DNA of 64,000 nucleotides from Selenomonadaceae bacterium (GTDB lineage: Bacteria; Bacillota; Negativicutes; Selenomonadales; Selenomonadaceae). Location of the stretch: positions 1 through 64,000 of the forward strand of contig JAFVEM010000004.1 of assembly GCA_017476005.1 (NCBI GenBank), written 5' to 3'. Both the position numbers and the translations under genes were made by a program. Each line of letters begins with the position of its first letter. Position 1 is the stretch's first letter. Below are positions 1 through 56,925 of the stretch, one piece after another. The notes below the pieces were generated by a model. It saw only the letters and a list, made by a program, of their open reading frames with translations, was not told the origin of the DNA and did no database searches.

Positions 1-268
1 CTAGCTAATCAGACGCAGACCCATCTTTCGGCGATAGCTTATATATAGAGGCCATCTTTAGTGAATCCCCCATGTGAGAAACTCACTTCATTCGGTATTA
101 GCACAGCTTTCGCTCTGTTGTCCCCATCCCAAAGGTAGGTTATCTACGCGTTACTCACCCGTTTGCCACTAGGTAATCAAAAGCAAGCTTCTTCTTACCC
201 CGTTCGACTTGCAAGTGTTAAGCACGCCGCCAGCGTTCGTCCTGAGCCAGGATCAAACTCTCCAAAGT
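1..268 (-). rRNA. rrs: 16S ribosomal RNA, 5' end only
   Basis: The complement carries the universal 5' end of bacterial 16S rRNA: AGAGTTTGATCCTGGCTCAG reads from 261 down to 242, followed by the conserved GACGAACGCTGGCGGCGTGC stretch. The gene runs off the left edge, so only about the first sixth is present. The mature 5' end is placed at about 268 by analogy with other 16S genes. The window edge falls inside an rRNA operon, which is also where draft contigs often break. Confidence 0.97.
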
Positions 269-480
269 AGACGCTTGGCGCTTCAGCGCCTTAGCGGTCA
301 CTTTGCTGTTTGCCAATGCAAACAGCTTCCGAAGAGCTTCTCTAGCTCTTGAATTTTAAGAATTGCGATTGACCTTGCGGTTCAATCTTACTGGCTATCA
401 TGTTGCATGATCTTAGCATTGTTCAGTTTTCAAGGAACACGCTGTCGCTCTTCGGCCTTGCCTCACGAGCGAGCTTGCTT
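269..480 (-). other. 16S rRNA transcribed leader
   Basis: Untranslated leader between the rRNA promoter and the 16S gene. It holds short hairpins (GGCGC-TTCA-GCGCC near 277-290; GCTGTTTG/CAAACAGC near 304-327). At 420-439 the complement reads TGTTCCTTGAAAACTGAACA, an element typical of Firmicutes rRNA leaders and spacers. These parts are probably involved in antitermination and pre-16S processing (inference). I see no protein gene here; an 89-codon open frame beginning at 400 lies across the leader and promoter and is not credible. Confidence 0.7.
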
Positions 481-49420: not shown

Positions 49421-49531
49421 TGGGGCTTTGCCCCAGACCCCAGCAGGGGAAATAATTTGCACAGCATAAGCGACCTCTACAGGGCTAAAGCCCATAGAGT
49501 CTGCTTATCCCCTGCACCCCTTAATAGATTT
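49421..49531. repeat. Modular GC hairpin repeat, copy 4, with nested palindrome
   Basis: On the complement it runs from TTAAGGGGTGCAGGGG to TGGGGC-AAA-GCCCCA (49421-49435 on the plus strand). A 43-bp palindrome (49466-49508, ATAAGCAGACTCT...AGAGGTCGCTTAT on the complement) splits its first hairpin. It fills the space between ftsQ and the DUF881 gene, and could reduce read-through into DUF881-sbp. Confidence 0.8.
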
Positions 49532-56804: not shown

Positions 56805-56925
56805 TTTAAATCTCTTAATGGGTGCAGAGGAAATTATTTCCCCTGCTAGGGTTTGGGGCATAAGCAGACTCTTAGGGCACAAGCCCTTAGAGGTCGCTTA
56901 TACAAAGTAAAGCCCCAATATTTAT
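56805..56925. repeat. Modular GC hairpin repeat, copy 6, with nested palindrome
   Basis: Runs from AAATCTCTTAATGGGTGCAG through GAAATTATTTC and CCCTGCTAGGGTTTGGGGC to AAGCCCCAATATTTATTA. A 42-bp palindrome (56860-56901, ATAAGCAGACTCT...AGAGGTCGCTTAT) is placed in the loop of the final GGGGCA/AAGCCCC stem. Copy 4 has the same small palindrome in a different hairpin. Confidence 0.8.

Follow-up and report, generated by a model that had tools for sequence, protein, structure and literature searches.

A two-hairpin, gene-less repeat unit inserted in host palindromes of a Selenomonadaceae genome is probably a non-autonomous mobile element

The window, a 64,000-nucleotide stretch of a Selenomonadaceae genome (GenBank assembly GCA_017476005.1, contig JAFVEM010000004.1, positions 1–64,000), contains three copies of a conserved hairpin, here termed P2, each continued by a short tail, P3. 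The first P2 (positions 56860–56901, plus strand; 42 nt), found by both the exact pattern and a covariance model, lies in a GGGGC/AAAGCCCC hairpin of a longer host repeat. The first hairpin of that repeat (GCAGAGGAAATTATTTCCCCTGC) was identified by sequence reading at 56824–56846 (plus strand). The 5′ arm of the split hairpin, GGGGC, occupies 56855–56859 and the remainder of its loop with the 3′ arm (AAAGCCCC) occupies 56909–56916, both on the plus strand. The second P2 (49466–49508, minus strand; 43 nt) lies in a GCAGGGG/CCCCTGC hairpin, with one arm and the loop (GCAGGGGAAATAATTT) at 49443–49458 and the other arm, CCCCTGC, at 49509–49515 (both plus strand), next to the empty second hairpin of the same host repeat (GGGGCTTTGCCCC; 49422–49434, plus strand). 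The original prediction described these two as palindromes with identical 13-nt arms and middles that are unlike in sequence but paired in both copies, a description that is accurate; the two are inverted relative to each other. It lacked the 7-nt self-complementary tails that belong to the element, ACAAAGT at 56902–56908 (plus strand) and GCTGTGC at 49459–49465 (minus strand), and it lacked the third copy, detected with the covariance model at 263–305 (plus strand) and followed by its P3 (CTGTTTGCCAATGCAAACAG) at 306–325 (plus strand). This third copy abuts the 5′ end of the 16S rRNA gene, which is on the minus strand. The window copies in host repeats are flanked on either side by an ftsQ-like (POTRA) and a DUF881 gene, with ddl nearby, and by genes for a UDP-galactopyranose mutase and an Rrf2 regulator.

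The unit formed by P2 and P3, in this fixed order, is about 50 bases long, with P2 accounting for 42–43 nt. The P2 arms look mismatched (AGA/GTC), yet they fold completely if two one-base bulges are allowed, giving ATAAGC-(A)-GAC-TCT ... AGA-(G)-GTC-GCTTAT or, in general form, ATAAGC-A-GAC-NNN ... NNN-G-GTC-GCTTAT. Both the A and the G bulge are retained in 75 of the 82 distinct P2 sequences (134 loci), and also in the copy at the 16S gene, despite the alteration of its outer stem to CAAAGT/ACTTTG. The inner stem and tail vary with pairing mostly kept, whereas the bulges and outer stem are conserved, the arm conservation being overstated by a collecting model derived from exact copies; covariation with the pairing partners is seen at positions 11 and 13 as well as in the inner stem. 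The apex is mostly TTTA; directly to the left of P2, G predominates and A is rare (3/134). In one relative (G066, L218:1582–1643) an additional hairpin sits inside the apex of P2 itself. P3, a tail that is short, variable and able to pair with itself, ranges from GCNNTGC to GCCGACCGTAGGTCGGC and longer; it begins exactly where P2 ends in 78 of 92 distinct tails, compared with a mean of 18 and a maximum of 27 in shuffled controls. Stems of at least 4 bp were found in 34 of the distinct tails (shuffles: mean 2.3, maximum 7).

Searching the 2.7 Mb genome for the exact arms with a 10–25-nt spacer gave 15 matches, against none for the reversed pattern, and the covariance model located about 44 loci; the palindrome is therefore not a product of chance, nor is it confined to the two copies first noticed. 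The assembly is 93.6% complete, and reading covered the stretches around the matches. The copies are intergenic, the flags that place some of them in an open reading frame coming from a mechanical caller.

To compare filled with empty sites, the flanks of each copy in this genome were joined after removal of P2 and a tail of free length, and the product was compared with sequence from the same genome. The joined flanks of the copy at 49466 match an empty host repeat (L198) with 0 mismatches in 36 positions, those of the copy at 56860 differ from an empty repeat by 2 mismatches, and several other copies show none; for most host-repeat copies an empty site with 0–3 mismatches in 36 was found. 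The excised block consists of P2 and, usually, a self-complementary tail of 7–10 nt, which includes the P3 tails of both window copies in host repeats, and measures 49–53 bp. No duplicated target bases were present at the junctions of these own-genome pairs. The genome holds 41 fully empty host repeats. Some copies, among them those at 5S, at 16S, L085 and L009, have no empty partner, as expected of single sites. In host repeats of this genome the 49–53-bp unit thus forms a block, with no duplicated target, at nine types of junction, to which rRNA and tRNA sites are added; the form with the ACAAAGT tail alone is present in three distinct host hairpins (GGGGC/AAAGCCCC, GAGGGC/AAAGCCC and GAGGC/AGAGCCTC). 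These comparisons support the proposal that a tiny element has entered another repeat, and the copies do not share one place in all repeats. The further suggestion that it enters loops stands in part: folding with DNA parameters places the junction at a loop or next to one for four of the nine types (A, A2, A3 and C), and inside a predicted stem, not far from its end, for the other five (B, B2, D, E and E2), so that insertion into loops would be a tendency at best. We infer a target preference of the unit.

A single junction and a single orientation relative to the host repeat recur in many copies, and much of the copy number may therefore stem from copying of the host repeats. As the many single-junction copies probably reflect copying of already filled repeats, the number of independent insertions in this genome is closer to eleven, counting the nine junctions in host repeats and the sites at 16S and 5S, than to forty-four. 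Between species, no clean orthologous empty site was found: in the interval compared between L089 and L093, the positions of the filled repeats differ. Composite inverted repeats of 200–300 bp (L089:5640–6060 and L093:5620–6090), built from the host repeats of these relatives, themselves resemble mobile elements.

The unit is patchily spread across genera. Matches at E ≤ 0.001, weak ones included, occur in 41 of 151 genomes of the family, with copy numbers reaching 42 or more, and matches at E ≤ 1e-8 occur in 38 of 381 genomes of the class; a few other families of the class carry the unit as well. In a public genome collection, all exact matches were to metagenome-assembled genomes of the RUG and SUG series titled Selenomonas, Veillonellaceae or Selenomonadales. 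A search of viral contigs, plasmids and phages gave no match, and a phage or plasmid vehicle was rejected on this ground. In other genera P2 lies in different host repeats (CCTCCCCC..GGGGGAGG; GGCGG|..|GCCGcttgCGGC), and in another family (G313–G317) it lies inside a longer conserved repeat. The element is present in rRNA operons of rumen Selenomonadales: a copy nearly identical to the third one of the window occupies the 5′ edge of 16S in a genome of another genus (G083), one copy lies upstream of 5S (L046) and one lies between tRNA-Ala and tRNA-Ile (L072). Such elements can thus reach right up to the boundary of a 16S gene. Most relatives have a small GAGCC..GGTTC-type hairpin in the 16S leader, without P2. 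A divergent copy in G152 (L124, approximately 1450–1560) appears to break a second, 5S-like sequence adjoining an intact 5S gene.

Among the 25 of 119 families listed for the 85 proteins that flank the copies, none accounts for more than 2, and these give no candidate for a linked gene. A Y1/HUH transposase (RAYT or IS200-like), anticipated by the original prediction, found no support: Y1_Tnp is absent from this 93.6% complete genome and from three others (G037, G106 and G107), and across the 151 family genomes it shows no association with high copy number. IS110 was rejected as the mover, being represented in this genome by two remnants with stops and unassociated with the element.

These observations are best explained by a miniature, non-coding bacterial element of two tandem hairpins, of which P2 has a doubly bulged base conserved in sequence. 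Such an element is probably non-autonomous, served by an enzyme in trans, with copying of filled host repeats adding further copies. That P2 and P3 together are mobile is likely; the step involving single-stranded DNA and a trans-acting enzyme is more tentative, its chances somewhat short of even. In this scheme the enzyme would recognize P2 by its bulged stem, probably in the form of folded single-stranded DNA, and would insert the unit seamlessly where palindromes are exposed, by analogy with IS200/IS605-type or attC-type systems. Filled host repeats could then be copied or recombined, multiplying the unit further.

Several findings bear on whether an insertion enzyme is needed at all. The host repeats are built of modules, several types of hairpin being freely combined, and P2 might be one such module, swapped between palindromes by template switching or gene conversion; the common junction and orientation among copies of one class fit this account. 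Template switching does occur, as seen at L220:1492–1533 and L073:1501–1542, where the left arm has been 'corrected' to a perfect palindrome (ATAAGCGACC). However, in 75 of 82 sequences the bulges have been retained rather than corrected, and the unit also occupies unrelated host repeats of other genera, the 16S leader, the site before 5S and the spacer between tRNA genes, which makes module swapping without an enzyme unlikely. The same rRNA and tRNA locations, in two genera in the case of the 16S edge, together with the covarying stems, would suit a processing or protein-binding signal in RNA (for example, an RNase III-type site) that arose in rRNA operons, spread later and was conserved for its role in RNA. 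Against this, orientation to the flanking genes in this genome is mixed (same/same 20 versus opposite/opposite 13), on which ground a gene-oriented cis-RNA was also rejected; most relatives' 16S leaders lack P2; and Rfam returned no family at the gathering score and otherwise only matches at chance level, so that a known RNA family was rejected too. An RNA signal is accordingly a decidedly improbable explanation.

The idea that a reverse transcriptase, of a group II intron or another kind, spreads the unit by way of RNA draws on the presence of a reverse transcriptase match in all six of the highest-copy genomes tested, the one in the source genome residing in a recognizable group II intron (L226:1–1860; G000:C49). 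Five of those six genomes belong to one genus, however, and their matches differ in strength and type; G107, with 20 copies, has no reverse transcriptase, and 7 of 19 comparison genomes have one without the element. The signal is weak and phylogenetically confounded, and a reverse transcriptase, rejected as the mover, is very improbable in that role. We give scarcely any credence to the derivation first proposed, a REP- or MITE-type descendant of an IS200/IS605 (RAYT) transposon: the unit's size, its palindromic form, its placement outside genes and the absence of a duplicated target agree with that class, but the transposase is missing from the four genomes named above and a GTAG tag lies within 6 nt of P2 in 0 of 134 copies.

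The non-autonomous double-hairpin element favoured here has close counterparts outside bacteria. Allomyces DHEs are mitochondrial double-hairpin elements. Two reports describe mitochondrial GC clusters and double-hairpin elements as gene-less palindromes of approximately 40–50 bp that are apparently mobile, intergenic and also found near or in rRNA genes, with constrained stems and a capacity to merge with other palindromes (PMC4478555, PMC2800124). P2 and P3 resemble them in size, in the lack of genes, in intergenic and rRNA-proximal placement and in constrained stems, as well as in forming one block of two adjacent hairpins that is inserted into, or merged with, palindromes at the nine junction types. 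The unit differs from them in its bacterial chromosomal location, its fixed P2-then-P3 order and its conserved A and G bulges. Yeast GC clusters (GC42) are reported to have flanking AG/ACT repeats (PMC4478555), whereas the present unit has neither these nor a junction duplication.

Among bacterial repeats, REPINs reportedly enter other REPINs or the DNA next to them (PMC2817692, PMC3116915). P2 is likewise a short, extragenic, imperfect palindrome with compensatory changes in some 44 copies, but it lacks the GTAG tag, a Y1 transposase and the doublet of inverted REPs. CGTC-tagged REPs are short palindromic repeats with no known dedicated transposase (PMC3733652), features shared by P2, which differs in having no constant CGTC tag (CGTC or GACG lies within 6 nt in 17 of 134 copies). 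Without a target site duplication, the unit is also unlike a MITE of a DDE transposon. The small dispersed repeats of cyanobacteria (SDRs, such as SDR5) are very small, gene-less and thought to be mobile; the unit shares this description and differs in host group and probably in sequence. Integron attC sites are recognized as a folded single strand with extrahelical bases. P2 too has extrahelical bases, but it carries them on both arms and, on direct reading, lacks the GTTRRRY and RYYYAAC core sites (R′ and R″).

Orphan mobile hairpins are already known, and as far as could be found the two-hairpin form with fixed bulges, nested in bacterial palindromes, is apparently undescribed; a literature search with the arm strings yielded no relevant paper among the matches listed. 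The movement of gene-less hairpins, among them GC clusters, double-hairpin elements and orphan REPs, is a long-standing question. It becomes testable here because a single bacterial family provides copies by the dozen, empty sites that match exactly, conserved bulges that hint at a recognition step and a high-copy genome without an HUH transposase. A broader reading, possible but on present evidence doubtful, is that a double hairpin of approximately 50 bp bears two bulges as the mark for a non-HUH bacterial enzyme, which would place it seamlessly in palindromes, in rRNA leaders and in spacers between tRNA genes, a previously undescribed form of DNA movement that has spread between genera of one class.

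A looser family of hairpins with the core CTCTAA..TAAGAG was encountered in G001 (L109 and L123), G007 (L111 and L125) and G060 (L115); weak model matches to such hairpins in G007, G001 and G002 were left out of the element counts. These hairpins form arrays in G001 and lie in the 16S leader in G060, and they may be a distant cousin of P2.
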